From a virus: a stretch of 24,490 nt of DNA. Of the stretch, positions 2,224 to 15,487 are shown piece after piece. The position numbers were made by a program, and so were the translations under genes. The notes beneath the pieces were generated by a model. It was given only the letters and a program-made list of their open reading frames with translations. It searched no databases and was not told where the DNA came from. Positions within the stretch are counted from its first letter, which is position 1. Every line of letters begins with the position of its first letter. Where the stretch lies: IMG/VR virus record IMGVR_UViG_3300027896_000210, positions 1 to 24,490 of that record. One strand, 5' to 3'.

Positions 2224-2696
2224 GATTATTTCTGGACACTGAATTTACAGATCTTATTCCAGGCAATAAGCTTATTAGCATTGCTCTAGTAGATGAGAAC
2301 GAAGAGTCCTTTTATGCAGAACTTACAGATACCTATGAATTGAAAGATTGTTCGGAATTCGTTAAGGCATTTGTTCTACCATTTTTGTTTGGTGATGCGC
2401 ATTGGCAGATGACTTCCTATGACTGCGCTCTAAAATTAGGTAACTGGATTGAAGATCGTGGACCCGATTGTATTCTTGCTTGCGATAATCCCGGATGGGA
2501 TATACCACATCTGAAGAAATTATTAGAATCTTGCTGGCCAGAAAATTTGCATAAGAATCAATATCATCCCGTATATGTTCCCGCGCATATTGAAGAAGAT
2601 ATTGTATTAGAAAACGATTACTGGATTCACAATGCATTGCATGATGCATTGGTAATGAAGAAGGCAACGGATTTACAAGCTAAATTGAAATATTGA
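2220..2696 (+). CDS. DEDDh-type 3'-5' exonuclease (Rv2179c/RNase T-like)
   Basis: 158 residues with the signature of the DnaQ-like DEDDh fold: DTEF at the N-terminus (D6, E8), a middle Asp in CDNPGWDI (D89 or D94), and H137-x4-D142 in HNALHDAL. The spacing resembles the small Rv2179c-type exoribonuclease group, in which two metal ions held by the acidic residues cleave the 3' phosphodiester. The substrate (RNA or DNA) cannot be told from the sequence. It starts by ATGA overlap with the upstream gene, so it depends on coupled translation. A role in RNA turnover or nucleotide scavenging during infection is inference. Confidence 0.7.
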   Translation: MRLFLDTEFTDLIPGNKLISIALVDENEESFYAELTDTYELKDCSEFVKAFVLPFLFGDAHWQMTSYDCALKLGNWIEDRGPDCILACDNPGWDIPHLKKLLESCWPENLHKNQYHPVYVPAHIEEDIVLENDYWIHNALHDALVMKKATDLQAKLKY

Positions 2697-2702
2697 TAAA
2701 TA
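2695..2702 (+). promoter_or_regulatory. Late-promoter-like octamer GATAAATA (leaderless arrangement)
   Basis: The octamer overlaps the TGA of the exonuclease gene and is followed after 4 nt by the ATG at 2707. If the start is about 6 nt downstream, as at T4 late promoters, the message would begin at or next to the AUG. Confidence 0.6.
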
Positions 2703-2706
2703 TTTC

Positions 2707-3150
2707 ATGAGATTAGATGAAATTGAATCTCAGCCTAGATCTGAACTAGATGCTGATGCTAAAACCTATATTGTCTACGATGAGAATGGAAAAGAATTCT
2801 CCAGGCATCCCTTTCAACATGTGTGGGATTCGAGCCCTGCTATGCGTGCAGCGAAAGCCGATGTATTAAAACTGCGTACAGAATTATATAAGGTTAGATC
2901 AGCAAAGGGTAAAGAAGAAGCAGAAGCTAAACCATTATCTAGGATTGAACAAGAATATGTAGATATATTGGGTAAATGGCAAAGGTATTACGATACCATG
3001 TTTTCGAAAGATCCCAATAAGCGCCTACAGAATATTGATGATGAAACTAAAAAAGTTTATATTGACCAGATGGATAAATGGATGAAGAGGCTAGAACAAC
3101 TGAATGGTTCAGTTAGAAAATCAGTTCAGATGGGAACTCGCAAAACCTGA
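2707..3150 (+). CDS. Unknown 147-residue late protein, possibly leaderless message
   Basis: The frame starts at ATG 2707 with no Shine-Dalgarno sequence; the next in-frame Met is far inside (about residue 46), so this start is strongly preferred. The product begins MRLDEIESQPRSELDADAK, a short Met-basic-hydrophobic-Glu opening that weakly resembles a capsid-targeting peptide. The rest is a charged, mostly helical protein, with likely coiled-coil stretches around residues 50-80 (KADVLKLRTELYKVRSAK) and 110-140. I do not recognise the family. The gene has its own GATAAATA octamer and is followed by another before the neck-like gene, so it may be a monocistronic late unit. Confidence 0.7.
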   Translation: MRLDEIESQPRSELDADAKTYIVYDENGKEFSRHPFQHVWDSSPAMRAAKADVLKLRTELYKVRSAKGKEEAEAKPLSRIEQEYVDILGKWQRYYDTMFSKDPNKRLQNIDDETKKVYIDQMDKWMKRLEQLNGSVRKSVQMGTRKT

Positions 3151-4725: not shown

Positions 4726-7296
4726 ATGGCAGTTTTAGTCTCACCTGGCGTAAGCATTTCGGTTATTGATCAATCGATCAATGTCGGCGCAGGACCAGGA
4801 ACAGTACCCCTAATTTTTATTGCCACACAGCAAGATAAATTAGATCCAACAAGCTCGGGCGTCGTAGCACAAGGCACCACAAAGGCTAATGCCGGCAAGG
4901 TTTGGTCTATAACATCACAGAGGGATTTGGTTACCACATTTGGTGATCCAGTCTTCTATTCTGTAAGTGGAACATCGTTGAATGGTTACCCATTAAATGA
5001 ATATGGTTTGTTAGCAGCTTATTCGTATCTAGGTCTTTCGAATCTAGTAAGAGTTGTTCGTGCAGATATTGATACCTCACAATTACAACCTGATCCAGTT
5101 GAACCAACAAGTCCAGCAGCAGCAGGAACATATTGGTTTGATCAATCTTCGAATGGTTCTGCATATGGTTTGTTTACTCGCAGTGGTGTATTTCCAAATG
5201 AAGTTTGGGTAACAGTAACTCCAAAGTATGTATATGATTTCGCAACAGGTGTTGTAAATGTTCCAGTACCGGGCGATGGTGTAAACGGCGATTATGCGGT
5301 TGTATTCCAAACAGCAAATGGTACATTGTCGTATTGGACAAAGACTGGTGGTGTATGGGTTCAATTAGGAACTACAGTAGGTACACAGATGTTAATTCAA
5401 TCTGTATGGCCAGACTTAACGAATGTTCTAACAACTCAAACATATTGGGTTAAGACTACATCGGCAGCACAAGGTGCTAATATGGTTCTTCGTGAGATGA
5501 GTGCTACATTGGTGGCATTTGTTCAAGTTGAAGCTCCTATTTTAGCAAATGATGCAGCAGCAAATACTTATTACAGTACAAACGCCACAGGTTCTGCAGG
5601 ACAGGTTTATGTTGAACCAGTTATTACTGGTGTAGGTGCAACCGCAACAAATTCGTTAGAATTTAGATTGGGTGCTACCGCAACCACTTGGGCAACATTT
5701 ACAACTATCGTTGGATCTACTAGTGTTCCTACATCGGGACCAGCAAATGGTCAACTATGGTTTAATGCATTATTGGGTCTAAATAGTGCCGGCCAATCTA
5801 CAATTGATATTCTTGTCAATGATGGTGCCGATCACTGGCTGAATTGCAATTTGCCAGGATTCACACTTCCTGGTTCAACTGGTAATCCAACATTGTATCC
5901 ACAATCTGGTGATCCACGTGATAATGTTCCAGCACCTGTGTTGGTTGCTAATGATCTCTGGGTTCAAACAGATGTTCTTCCATATCCTGTTATTAAGTAT
6001 TGGAATGGTTCTGCTTGGGTACTGATTAGCAATAAAGATCAAACTTCTAACCACGGTATTATCTTCCAGGATGCACGTTCAAATCCACTTTACAAATTAG
6101 GTGGCATTGTCGGTACAGGTGCAAACAACGGTGGTGGTAATAATCCTGACTTAGACGCAGATGCTCCACAAGGTGCATTGTATCCAAAGGGATTCCTACT
6201 ATGGAACACACGTTATTCTACAAACAATGTTAAGGTTTGGGAATCACCATATGTATTTGATAGCATAACAGCATCACCAGATAATACAAACAATGGTTCA
6301 ACAGGACGTTGGGTTACAACATCGGGCAATAATGCGGGTGGTGTACCTTATATGGGTGCAGCAGCACAGAATATTGTTATTGTACAAGCAATTCAATCAA
6401 CGATTGTTTCTAATCAAGATATTCGCGCAGAAGATTTGTATTTCAATCTAATTGCTGCTCCGGGATATGTTGAAGCTATCGATGAAATGTTAGTCCTAAA
6501 TGATGATCGTAAGGATACAGCATTCGTTGTTGGTGATACACCGTTCACATTAAATGCAACAGGAACAGCATTGCAAAATTGGGCAACCGATGCAAGCGGT
6601 GCATTTGATAATAATGCTGATGGTTTGGTATCTGCAAGTAAGTATTTTGCTTGCTGGTATCCAAGTGGATTGAGTACAAATGTTGATGGAACTGATGTTG
6701 TTGTTCCGCCATCGCATATGGCTCTTCGTACCATTGCATACAATGACCAGGTTGCTTATCCATGGTTTGCACCAGCTGGTCTACAACGCGGTGTTGTTAA
6801 TAATGCTGCCGATGTTGGTTATGTTAATGCATCCGGACAATTTGTAACAGTTAAGTTGAATGAAGGTCAACGTGATATTCTATATCAGAATGGTGTTAAT
6901 CCTATTCGTGTAATGCCTGCAGGTGGTATTGTTGTATTCGGACAGAAGACACGTCAGCCATATTCAAGTGCAACAGATCGTATCAACGTAGTTCGCCTAG
7001 AAAACTACTTGCGCTACCAATTGAATAACCTTGCGCTACCATTCTTGTTTGAACCTAACGATACAACAACTCGTAAGGCAGTAACTGATGCATTCAATAG
7101 ATTCCTTTCAGAACTTATTACATTGCGCGGTTTGTATGACTTCTTAGTTGTTTGTGACTTGAGCAATAACACACCAGCTCGTATCGATAGAAATGAGTTG
7201 TGGATTGATATTGCAATTCAACCTGTTAAGGCAATTGAATTTATTTACATTCCTATCAGAATTAAGAATACAGGTGCAAGCCTAACTTCAGTATAA
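4726..7296 (+). CDS. 18: Tail sheath protein gp18
   Basis: Contractile sheath subunit that forms stacked rings around the tail tube and shortens on infection. The N-terminus (residues 1-117: VSPGVSISVIDQS, then YSYLGLSNLVRVVRADID) and the C-terminal part (about 550-856) match the conserved T4-type sheath core. The end, with DRINVVRLENYLRYQ, DFLVVCDLSNN, LWIDIAIQPVKAIEFIYIPI, is especially characteristic. At 856 residues it is longer than T4 gp18 (659). The extra length lies in residues about 118-540, which contain several Trp-centred beta-rich modules (see findings). The ATG has an ideal ribosome-binding site and a GATAAATA, consistent with high late expression. A strong terminator follows, so sheath is probably made from its own message. 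Confidence 0.92.
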   Translation: MAVLVSPGVSISVIDQSINVGAGPGTVPLIFIATQQDKLDPTSSGVVAQGTTKANAGKVWSITSQRDLVTTFGDPVFYSVSGTSLNGYPLNEYGLLAAYSYLGLSNLVRVVRADIDTSQLQPDPVEPTSPAAAGTYWFDQSSNGSAYGLFTRSGVFPNEVWVTVTPKYVYDFATGVVNVPVPGDGVNGDYAVVFQTANGTLSYWTKTGGVWVQLGTTVGTQMLIQSVWPDLTNVLTTQTYWVKTTSAAQGANMVLREMSATLVAFVQVEAPILANDAAANTYYSTNATGSAGQVYVEPVITGVGATATNSLEFRLGATATTWATFTTIVGSTSVPTSGPANGQLWFNALLGLNSAGQSTIDILVNDGADHWLNCNLPGFTLPGSTGNPTLYPQSGDPRDNVPAPVLVANDLWVQTDVLPYPVIKYWNGSAWVLISNKDQTSNHGIIFQDARSNPLYKLGGIVGTGANNGGGNNPDLDADAPQGALYPKGFLLWNTRYSTNNVKVWESPYVFDSITASPDNTNNGSTGRWVTTSGNNAGGVPYMGAAAQNIVIVQAIQSTIVSNQDIRAEDLYFNLIAAPGYVEAIDEMLVLNDDRKDTAFVVGDTPFTLNATGTALQNWATDASGAFDNNADGLVSASKYFACWYPSGLSTNVDGTDVVVPPSHMALRTIAYNDQVAYPWFAPAGLQRGVVNNAADVGYVNASGQFVTVKLNEGQRDILYQNGVNPIRVMPAGGIVVFGQKTRQPYSSATDRINVVRLENYLRYQLNNLALPFLFEPNDTTTRKAVTDAFNRFLSELITLRGLYDFLVVCDLSNNTPARIDRNELWIDIAIQPVKAIEFIYIPIRIKNTGASLTSV

Positions 7297-7312
7297 TCTG
7301 ATAATATTTACG

Positions 7313-7338
7313 ATGCCCGCTTCGGCGGGCATCTTTTT
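7313..7338 (+). terminator. Intrinsic terminator after the sheath gene
   Basis: ATGCCCGC (7313-7320), loop TTCG, GCGGGCAT (7325-7332), then CTTTTT. A perfect 8-bp GC-rich stem with a UUCG tetraloop and a T-run, 16 nt after the sheath stop. Confidence 0.9.
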
Positions 7339-7342
7339 GGCT

Positions 7343-7350
7343 GATAAATA
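7343..7350 (+). promoter_or_regulatory. Late-promoter-like octamer GATAAATA (leaderless arrangement)
   Basis: Directly after the terminator and exactly 4 nt before the ATG at 7355, as at 2695-2702/2707. The two sites share the string GATAAATATT. Confidence 0.6.
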
Positions 7351-7354
7351 TTCA

Positions 7355-8050
7355 ATGTTTCCGGAATCCCTATCTTTAAGAAGATTTATCAGAGTATTGC
7401 AATCCCAAGAGAATGCCGATTGTTGCACAGCTTCAGCATCATTGATTGCAGCGGAAATGATTATGTCATCTGTAGGGAAAAATATGAATTTTTCTAGATT
7501 ATATGTTTATTATATGACAAGAAAAATTCAAAATAGATTAAAACAGCGTGGTGCAGAATTAAAAGACACACTTAATGCTCTTACGATATATGGTGCATCT
7601 CCAGAAAATAATTGGCCATTTAGTATAAGCAGGATAGATAGAGAACCTAATATTCCTGCAATAGAAGCAGGAGTATATTATAGGGTACAATCTTATAAAG
7701 AAGTTTCATCAGAAGAGTTTAAGACTTATTTAATACGGAATATTCCGATAATTATCGGTATACGAACCGGGACAAAATTCTGGAAGCTCAATGGCCCACT
7801 TGAAGAACAAGCATATAAAGCCGTAAATATTACGGATAATCGTCCATCAACCGGTCATGCTATGACTGTTATAGGCTACGATGACAAAATAGGTGGTGGA
7901 TCTTGGATTGTGGCTAATTCTTTAGGTCCGCGCTGGGGATTTCAGGGATATGGAGCAATACCATATGAGTGTAATGTTGATATAGGTGAATCGTATGTTA
8001 TTACAAAGTTTGCTGGAATAGAGGCTGGTAAAAAAATTTCTGAGAATTGA
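7355..8050 (+). CDS. Papain-like (C1 family) cysteine peptidase
   Basis: 231 residues from ATG 7355. An upstream in-frame ATG at 7313 lies in the terminator stem and adds only residues encoded by it, so I reject that start. The papain active-site order is complete. Q18 with C24 in QENADCCTAS has exactly the Gln-x5-Cys spacing of papain Q19/C25. H168 is in STGHAMTVIGYDD. N188 is in WIVANSLGPRWGFQGYG, matching the family NSWG...WG..GY pattern. There is no signal peptide or prodomain, so it should be active in the cytoplasm or in the virion. It has its own octamer and no ribosome-binding site, and it sits between sheath and tube, where T4 has nothing. Targets are unknown: host proteins, phage structural proteins or cell-wall-linked proteins are all possible. 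Confidence 0.8.
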   Translation: MFPESLSLRRFIRVLQSQENADCCTASASLIAAEMIMSSVGKNMNFSRLYVYYMTRKIQNRLKQRGAELKDTLNALTIYGASPENNWPFSISRIDREPNIPAIEAGVYYRVQSYKEVSSEEFKTYLIRNIPIIIGIRTGTKFWKLNGPLEEQAYKAVNITDNRPSTGHAMTVIGYDDKIGGGSWIVANSLGPRWGFQGYGAIPYECNVDIGESYVITKFAGIEAGKKISEN

Positions 8051-8056
8051 TAAATA
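8049..8056 (+). promoter_or_regulatory. Late-promoter-like octamer GATAAATA before the tail tube
   Basis: It overlaps the peptidase stop and lies 27 nt before the tube ATG, which has GCAGGAGAT (8071-8079) as ribosome-binding site. Confidence 0.65.
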
Positions 8057-8083: not shown

Positions 8084-8698
8084 ATGGCAAATTTAGCTAA
8101 ATTCGGTATTCCATTAGATGGAAACAAACTGGGTATCCTTCACCCAAAGCAGAAGTATCGTTTTAGAGTTGTCTGGCAGAATTTCGGCGAGAACAACGGT
8201 TTGCGCGAAATGACTGCTAACGTAATGACATGCACTCGTCCAAAGATTACATATGATGAAGTCAAACTAGACTCATACAACTCGGTTGCATGGATTCAAG
8301 GTAAGCATACTTTCGATCCAGTTGAAATTAAATTACGTGATGATATTACTAATTCGGTAATTTCTTCAGTTGGTGCACAAATTCAGAAACAGATGAATCA
8401 CTTTGAACAAACAAGTGCTGTCGCTGGTATTAATTACAAATTCGCAATGGAAATTCATTCGTTAGATGGTACTGACAACGAACAACTCGAATCGTGGGTC
8501 CTAGACGGATGCTGGATTCAAGCAGCAGCATATGGTGAAGGCGATTATGCAAGCGGTGATCCAAATGAAGTTACATTAACAATTCGTTTCGATAACGCAA
8601 CAAATGTTTCGGGTCCAAATACAAACAACGGAACAACAGTAGGTGGAAATCCATATCCAGATATTGCCAGCCCAACTGGCGGTACTACATTCGCATAA
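8084..8698 (+). CDS. 19: Tail tube protein gp19
   Basis: 204 residues of the T4 gp19 type, the subunit of the inner tube through which DNA passes. Recognisable parts are KYRFRVVWQNFG near residue 24, MTANVMTCTRPKITYDEVKLDSYNS (split here as MTANVMTCTR and the following PKITYDEVKLDSYNS), VEIKLRDDITNSV, and a late ESWVLDGCWIQAA followed by EVTLTIRFDNA. These belong to the tube fold shared with Hcp. T4 gp19 is 163 residues; the additional C-terminal 30 or so residues here are Gly/Pro/Asn-rich and probably flexible. It has its own promoter-like octamer and strong ribosome-binding site, fitting a protein needed in many copies. Confidence 0.88.
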   Translation: MANLAKFGIPLDGNKLGILHPKQKYRFRVVWQNFGENNGLREMTANVMTCTRPKITYDEVKLDSYNSVAWIQGKHTFDPVEIKLRDDITNSVISSVGAQIQKQMNHFEQTSAVAGINYKFAMEIHSLDGTDNEQLESWVLDGCWIQAAAYGEGDYASGDPNEVTLTIRFDNATNVSGPNTNNGTTVGGNPYPDIASPTGGTTFA

Positions 8699-13912: not shown

Positions 13913-15487
13913 ATGGCAATCTATCAAGACGATAAACTTGTAAAGCGTGCCTATACCAAGGTTTCCTATACAAAAGAACAAATAGATGAACTTAAGGCTT
14001 GTCTAGATCCGGTAACCGGCCCCGAATATTTCATATCTAATTTTATGTATATTCAACATGCTGTGGAAGGTAGGCAGAAATTAAAGTTATATCCGTTTCA
14101 ATTAGACCTAATTCACACATATCATACATATAGAAAATCTATCAATATGGTTAGTCGCCAGATGGGTAAGACTACCGTTGCAGCAGGTTATCTACTTTGG
14201 TATGCAATGTTTATGGAAGATTCTACAATCCTTATTGCTTCAAATAAGTATGAAGGTGCGCAGGAAATTATGCATAGAGTTCGTTATGCATATGAATCAA
14301 TTCCGGATCATATTAGAGCAGGCGTAAAAGAATATAATAAACGCTCAATGGCATTTGATAACGGATCTCGTATTATTGCAACAACTACCACAGAAAATAC
14401 CGGTCGTGGTACATCTCTATCCTTAGTTTATTTGGACGAATTTGCATTCGTTGAACCTAATATTGCGAAAGAGTTCTGGACTTCAATATCTCCCACATTG
14501 TCAACTGGTGGTAAGTGTATTATTACTTCTACTCCAAATACCGATGAAGATCAATTTGCTGATATTTGGTTTGGTGCTAATAGATTAGTTGATGATAACG
14601 GTAATGAAACAATAATTGGTAAGAACGGTTTCCGCCCTTATAAATCTACTTGGGAAGCTCACCCAGACCGTGATCAGGCTTGGGCTGATGCAGAATTTGC
14701 AGCACTTGGAGAAGATAGATTTTTACGTGAACATAAGTGTGAATTTATTACATTTGAAGAGACACTTATTAATCCTGTTAAGTTGTCACAACTTGAATCC
14801 ATGCAGCCTATTAGTAAGACAGGTCAGGTCCGTTGGTATGCACCGATTAGAGCAGATTTGACATACGTTGTTTCATTAGACCCATCAATGGGAACAGGCG
14901 GCGACAATGCAGCAATTCAGATATTAGAATTACCCACACTTGTTCAAGTCGGTGAATGGAGCAATAACAAGGCTCCAATTGAAGAACAGATTCGAACATT
15001 GAAGAAAGTTTTAGCAGAAATATATGAATCTGGCAAACCGGAAATTTATTGGTCAGTTGAGAGTAATTCACTAGGTGAAGCAGCATTGGTTGTTATTAGA
15101 GATACAGGAGAAGAAAATTTCCCCGGTACAATGTTGCATGATCCAAAGAATAAATTACAGGGTCGTGGAATGAGACGTGGCGGATTTGTTACAACTAATA
15201 AATCTAAACTAGAGGCTTGTGCTAAGTTGAAATTCCTAATTGAATCTAATAAGATGAAACTAAATTCTAAAGGCATTTTGTCAGAATTAAAGGTATTTGT
15301 TTCTAGAGCAAATACATTTGAAGCACGTATTGGACAAACAGATGACTTGATTATGGCAATGATACTTGCAATTCGTATGATAGATTATATTTCTACCTGG
15401 GATGATCAATCACAGGCAGCAATTAACAGTGATGTTTCTGAAGAGGGCGACTTAGGGTATGATCAACCTATGCCGATATTCATATGA
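13913..15487 (+). CDS. 17: Terminase large subunit gp17
   Basis: 524 residues of the T4 gp17 packaging motor. The ATPase domain has Walker A SRQMGKTT (81-88), Walker B LVYLDEF (171-177, catalytic Glu176) and coupling motif ITSTPNT (204-210). The C-terminal RNase H-like nuclease has D323 in VSLDPSMGTGGDN, an acidic residue in WSVESNSLGE, and DD in GQTDDLIMAM. The N-terminus is shorter than T4 gp17 (610 residues). The gene follows the 603-residue protein by 3 nt and overlaps the next gene's ATG, and it is separated from gp16 by two genes. Confidence 0.95.
   Translation: MAIYQDDKLVKRAYTKVSYTKEQIDELKACLDPVTGPEYFISNFMYIQHAVEGRQKLKLYPFQLDLIHTYHTYRKSINMVSRQMGKTTVAAGYLLWYAMFMEDSTILIASNKYEGAQEIMHRVRYAYESIPDHIRAGVKEYNKRSMAFDNGSRIIATTTTENTGRGTSLSLVYLDEFAFVEPNIAKEFWTSISPTLSTGGKCIITSTPNTDEDQFADIWFGANRLVDDNGNETIIGKNGFRPYKSTWEAHPDRDQAWADAEFAALGEDRFLREHKCEFITFEETLINPVKLSQLESMQPISKTGQVRWYAPIRADLTYVVSLDPSMGTGGDNAAIQILELPTLVQVGEWSNNKAPIEEQIRTLKKVLAEIYESGKPEIYWSVESNSLGEAALVVIRDTGEENFPGTMLHDPKNKLQGRGMRRGGFVTTNKSKLEACAKLKFLIESNKMKLNSKGILSELKVFVSRANTFEARIGQTDDLIMAMILAIRMIDYISTWDDQSQAAINSDVSEEGDLGYDQPMPIFI

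Follow-up and report, generated by a model that had tools for sequence, protein, structure and literature searches.

The window, the whole 24,490-base stretch of viral DNA that was analyzed, carries a gene for a 231-residue cysteine peptidase in the interval between the genes for the tail sheath and the tail tube (Table 1). Its coding part runs from 7355 to 8047 on the plus strand and is closed by a stop codon at 8048–8050. The sheath is nearest to those of jumbo phages such as Paride and PA5oct (~52% identity) and Agrobacterium phage Atu_ph07. A first-pass annotation, made from the sequence alone, had placed a peptidase between sheath and tube, and the profile matches of both flanking genes bear out this placement. 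We know of no such gene between genes 18 and 19 of phage T4. Elsewhere in the window, a terminase-like ORF (13913–15487) lacks, by reading, an intein-like insert that is present in the corresponding ORF of locus L006 (13487–14845).

Table 1. Features at the sheath–tube junction; positions are those of the window.
Feature	Position	Strand	Basis
Tail sheath protein, bordering the insertion site upstream	4726–7296	+	PHROG tail sheath, E 3.5e-229
Intrinsic terminator of the upstream sheath transcript (9-bp stem, TTCG loop, T5)	7312–7338	+	Folding; also at empty sites
T4-type late promoter box GATAAATA of the peptidase gene	7343–7350	+	Motif; ends 4 nt before ATG, no Shine-Dalgarno
C1A papain-fold (xylellain-type) cysteine peptidase gene, 231 aa, without propeptide	7355–8050	+	Profile, fold, and catalytic-residue comparison
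GATAAATA box, late promoter of the tube gene	8049–8056	+	Motif; shares bases with TGA, the peptidase stop codon
Tail tube protein, bordering the insertion site downstream	8084–8698	+	PHROG tail tube, E 2.1e-54

Fold, active site, and N-terminus of the peptidase

The gene product is almost certainly a C1A papain-fold enzyme. It matches the Pfam family Peptidase_C1 (PF00112) at E 1.2e-10 and 42.3 bits (cut-off 20.7), with residues 12–207 lying on profile positions 14–207 of 220. The AlphaFold model, built from a 34-row alignment, has a pLDDT of 95.6 and a pTM of 0.92 and is papain-like, so that profile search and structure prediction agree with the fold assigned in the first-pass annotation. Its top fold match is the bacterial peptidase xylellain (PDB: 3ois), with a Z of 26.8 and an rmsd of 1.6 over 211 residues, followed by a next match at Z 23.7. 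Foldseek likewise places xylellain first (E 2.5e-15) and, together with VIA-align, matches C1A enzymes across residues 1–223, that is, across the two-domain papain fold. When a profile of five relatives was compared with solved C1A enzymes, xylellain again ranked first (E 2.9e-20; next best 3.5e-09). Identity as an NlpC/P60 or C39 peptidase was rejected, the C39_2 match (E 1.9e-05) being far weaker than that to C1. PHROGs returned no family for the protein at E 0.01 and no more than a weak match of some of its relatives to a "peptidase" family, NCBIfam nothing usable, and the PADLOC models of anti-phage defense no match at E 0.1; a search of 12 related records for a chagasin-type inhibitor (PF09394) found none.

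The catalytic set named in the first-pass annotation, Q18-x5-C24 with H168 and N188, is present in papain order and spacing. Across 45 distinct copies of the peptidase, H168 and N188 are invariant, C24 is cysteine in 42 and uncovered in 3, and Q18 is glutamine in 42, uncovered in 2, and lysine in a single partial copy at a contig edge. All 42 distinct relatives that cover the four positions carry the full set without exception. The neighboring C23 is serine in 5 of the distinct copies while C24 does not vary; C24 is therefore the nucleophile, and C23 was ruled out for this function. As read from the alignment of the model to C1A structures, the catalytic residues appear clustered. The active site is thereby shown, at the level of sequence, to be intact and under selection.

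Residue 1 of the model aligns with residue 56 of xylellain and with residues 0–2 of mature cathepsins, and the N-terminus forms the first strand of the catalytic domain. Because the catalytic domain begins at residue 1, there is no propeptide, as had been noted at first pass. Relatives at the same site likewise begin at the mature domain. A longer start at 7313, which would give 245 residues, was not accepted, since it would run into the stem of the terminator and the start in relatives corresponds to 7355. The protein thus lacks the pro-region that is expected of the short bacterial C1A enzymes of xylellain type, and the clade at the tail site is accordingly a propeptide-less relative of this group rather than a typical member.

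Occupancy and evolution of the sheath–tube junction

Scans of viral contigs for relatives of the peptidase returned 5 and then 47 loci, and a second scan, by the tube protein, sampled the site irrespective of the peptidase. A relative occupies the same sheath–tube position in more than 40 metagenomic phage contigs, and every relative of at least 44% identity whose flanks are on the contig is bordered by these same two genes, sheath and tube. A survey of sheath–tube neighborhoods in other phages, suggested by the first-pass annotation, covered 56 distinct contigs that include both flanks. The peptidase is present in 35 of them; in 15 the site is cleanly empty, with a sheath–tube gap under 260 bases, and in 6 it has other content. 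Paride has an annotated homing endonuclease at the site, and loci L078 and L098 have long ORFs there that were judged endonuclease-like from reading rather than from a profile. Close relatives with tubes 88–89% identical share the junction but lack the peptidase gene.

Gene remnants were looked for at the empty sites, and none were found. Several of these sites contain an A-rich stretch resembling the 3' end of the peptidase gene; its reading as a relic was not adopted, since it may be a promoter element. The stretch lies about 10–25 nt ahead of the late promoter of the tube gene and is conserved whether the site is filled or empty; the C-terminal GKKI tail of the peptidase may therefore be coded by a promoter-upstream element. 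Locus L065 (2494–5001) has an intact peptidase gene, then a long minus-strand endonuclease-like ORF, and then fragments matching the C-terminal part of the peptidase, an arrangement suggestive of a copy broken or duplicated by the insertion.

Most relatives are short contigs, in which absence speaks for the site and not for the rest of the genome. Two longer records of relatives, of 362 and 385 kb, which may be incomplete, contain no peptidase copy. In two further records the site lacks the gene but another kind of C1A copy is present elsewhere; a 369 kb record combines the two kinds of C1A peptidase. A pattern scan of genome contigs for bacterial relatives found none, which says little because its patterns came from a narrow alignment.

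On a tree of the sheath C-terminus and the tube, the pattern of presence needs ~8 to 10 changes, at least 5 of them forced by well-supported branches. The peptidase is less identical than the tube in all 253 of 253 pairs (median identity 53% versus 79%), with a median dN/dS of 0.19 versus 0.09, ratios that are rough because in many pairs synonymous changes are almost saturated. It thus diverges at about twice the tube rate, under purifying selection. The correlation between peptidase distances and tube distances is weak (r 0.245), which suggests exchange of the peptidase between phages.

These data bear on the proposal, raised in the first-pass annotation, that the enzyme processes structural proteins. 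A morphogenetic protease acting on the sheath, the tube, or another structural protein would be in keeping with the fixed position of the gene in every close relative with flanks on the contig. It would also accord with the one sheath residue that co-varies with the peptidase: at F839 (~7240–7242, near the insertion point), the choice of Phe or Tyr tracks peptidase presence or absence better than shuffled labels do. The association probably reflects linkage to the insertion site; shared ancestry could also explain it, as might an interaction with the sheath. In the tube and second tube proteins, by contrast, no column is tied to peptidase presence beyond shuffles. A structural component of the tail would be present wherever sheath and tube are, whereas 15 of the 56 junctions are cleanly empty and 6 are otherwise occupied. 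Given the empty sites in close relatives and the two long records without a copy, the gene is dispensable for tails, and its patchy presence and faster divergence disfavor its reading as a tail part. We therefore regard a morphogenetic role as very improbable, the close relatives with tubes 88–89% identical that lack the gene and the 385 kb relative weighing against it. The peptidase is very probably an accessory cassette instead, and the picture is of an insertion hotspot at the sheath–tube junction, where the gene would be exchanged or lost.

Terminator, late promoters, and box-to-start spacing

The stem-loop at 7312–7333, followed by TTTTT, has a folding energy of −19.1 kcal/mol (z −4.8). 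The first-pass annotation had described it as the peptidase gene's own terminator upstream; the hairpin is real, but it lies directly after the sheath stop and is also found at empty sites, and so it belongs to the sheath. The promoter motif likewise ascribed to the peptidase gene holds up as a late-promoter box, GATAAATA. All 10 boxes of the form [GT]ATAAATA in positions 1–24490 are on the plus strand, with 0 on the minus strand, which is the direction of the genes. A search of the 24,490-base stretch with Rfam gave no match.

A box abutting the ATG without a Shine-Dalgarno sequence recurs in nearly all relatives, the exceptions being L030, L035, and L044. Over all loci of the clade, the distance from box to ATG is bimodal, at 4–9 nt (57) and 17–58 nt (178), with none at 10–16 nt. 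A Shine-Dalgarno sequence (4 or more) accompanies 1 of the 57 boxes at the short distance versus 167 of the 178 at the long one. In four large records, the close-set pattern occurs 23, 12, 21, and 16 times versus 0, 0, 3, and 0 times in a reversed control (72 versus 3). Late genes with the box 4–9 nt before the ATG and no Shine-Dalgarno sequence form a separate class; gene 2707 of the window (2695–3150) belongs to it, as does, in many relatives, a second tube-like protein (MPSFSS...).

The late promoter box of T4 spans −13 to −6 (PMC1524935). With the box so placed, the start codon would fall at −1 to +3, which predicts a leaderless or nearly leaderless late mRNA; under strict T4 spacing and a 4-nt gap, the A of the ATG is at −1, and the start must lie one base earlier. 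From this layout, we consider leaderless or nearly leaderless late expression of the peptidase probable, and the 4–9 nt class likely represents leaderless late mRNAs genome-wide.

Possible roles and comparison with known systems

Our proposed scheme starts from a cassette that, in a clade of T4-related jumbo phages, sits between the terminator of the sheath and the promoter of the tube, at a site otherwise empty or occupied by endonuclease genes. Its own late-promoter box would give a leaderless or nearly leaderless late mRNA and hence a ready-active protease only late in infection. The enzyme would not be needed to build the tail; it would act as an endopeptidase in the host cytoplasm, cutting host proteins involved in defense, stress, or metabolism, and a host-dependent benefit would explain both the patchy presence and the faster divergence. 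Among jumbo-phage peptidases, patchily distributed ones have been considered likely host-directed and conserved ones virion-processing (PMC7824862), and by the same logic the patchy distribution found here points to a host-directed role. The attack on host proteins envisaged at first pass would fit this distribution, whereas the late timing counts against it, being less natural for counter-defense than early timing would be. We put a host-directed target at slightly below an even chance. The same holds, just short of even, for the full statement of a propeptide-less C1A accessory cassette with late leaderless expression and a host-directed role.

Late expression would also suit a lysis or exit enzyme, a late cytoplasmic protease that passes through the holin and cleaves envelope or surface proteins or the peptides of wall cross-links, thereby aiding lysis and virion release. 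Related peptidases are linked to lysis in three unrelated phages: one adjoins lysin A and membrane proteins in Arthrobacter phage Mufasa8, one directly follows a GH25 lysin in THSA-485A, and one is part of a protein annotated as an endolysin in MMB025; the fold matches of the peptidase also include phage lysin domains. These lysis-linked relatives are, however, 28–32% identical to the canonical copy L119 and come from phages of Gram-positive hosts, while the copy in FLC9 is outside any annotated lysis module. The peptidase has no wall-binding domain, and its site is among tail genes, with no lysis genes identified beside it. On balance, this role seems unlikely, though it is the strongest of the competing ones. 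Alternatively, the enzyme could be made late, carried in the particle, and injected, so as to cut defense or regulatory proteins of the next host at once. Late expression beside structural genes and a patchy distribution of the host-directed type would accord with such an effector, but there is no obvious packaging signal, the N-terminus being part of the catalytic domain itself, and we judge it decidedly improbable.

We thus return to the host-directed cassette, in which the peptidase is probably no part of the tail but a weapon or helper. A wider version, in which this jumbo phage clade keeps a propeptide-less papain under purely transcriptional and translational control by way of leaderless late mRNA, as an effector that cuts host proteins, with leaderless late mRNAs as a regular second class of late genes, is speculative and on the whole rather doubtful. 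What had looked like a one-off curiosity becomes a defined phage papain family whose genomic address is fixed, whose active site is invariant, and for which phages with and without the gene form natural pairs; given a host, its role could be addressed by deletion and substrate profiling. In jumbo phages, the sheath–tube junction stands out as a site for cargo. The analysis also brings to light, in T4-related phages, a group of late genes that are likely leaderless, something that transcript mapping could confirm fast.

The enzyme class itself is already known in phages; the new details are the site, the missing propeptide, and the leaderless layout. A search of the open-access literature found no description of the propeptide-less clade, the fixed hotspot, or the leaderless late layout. 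Xylellain-type C1A peptidases in Myoviridae and Siphoviridae have been published (PMC10380794), and related ones are annotated in several phages, so that calling this the least expected enzyme of the window, as was done at first pass, was an overstatement.

With xylellain, the short C1A enzyme of Xylella fastidiosa, the phage peptidase shares the papain fold, the Q/C/H/N set, and the SRLF-YY-RK motif region, at ~26% identity; it differs in starting at the mature domain. The position of papain Trp177 is Leu in 24 of the 45 phage copies and Trp in 3. The related tailed-phage peptidases (FLC9 gp163, Mufasa8 gp26, and those of the 595 kb phage LR756511, the Lak phages, and THSA-485A) belong to the same subfamily, likewise acquired by phages, the nearest two being ~26% identical to the 231-residue protein. 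FLC9 gp163 has an N-terminal segment before the mature domain, unlike the sheath–tube peptidase, and in the neighborhoods read (FLC9, Mufasa8, THSA-485A, and MMB025) none of the relatives is at the sheath–tube junction. Within the same jumbo phage group, L119, L120, and L121 are second C1A copies; in L119 and L121 the mature domain is preceded by an N-terminal extension, and both are located elsewhere in the genome, away from tail genes. In the 369 kb record, this second peptidase (L121, 4151–6025) adjoins two ORFs with tails that are PEP-CTERM-like by eye, a hint that the host may have an exosortase system. With T4, finally, this phage has in common a TATAAATA-like box upstream of its late genes; it departs from the T4-type layout in that, for the peptidase and a set of other genes, the box abuts the start codon and no Shine-Dalgarno sequence intervenes.
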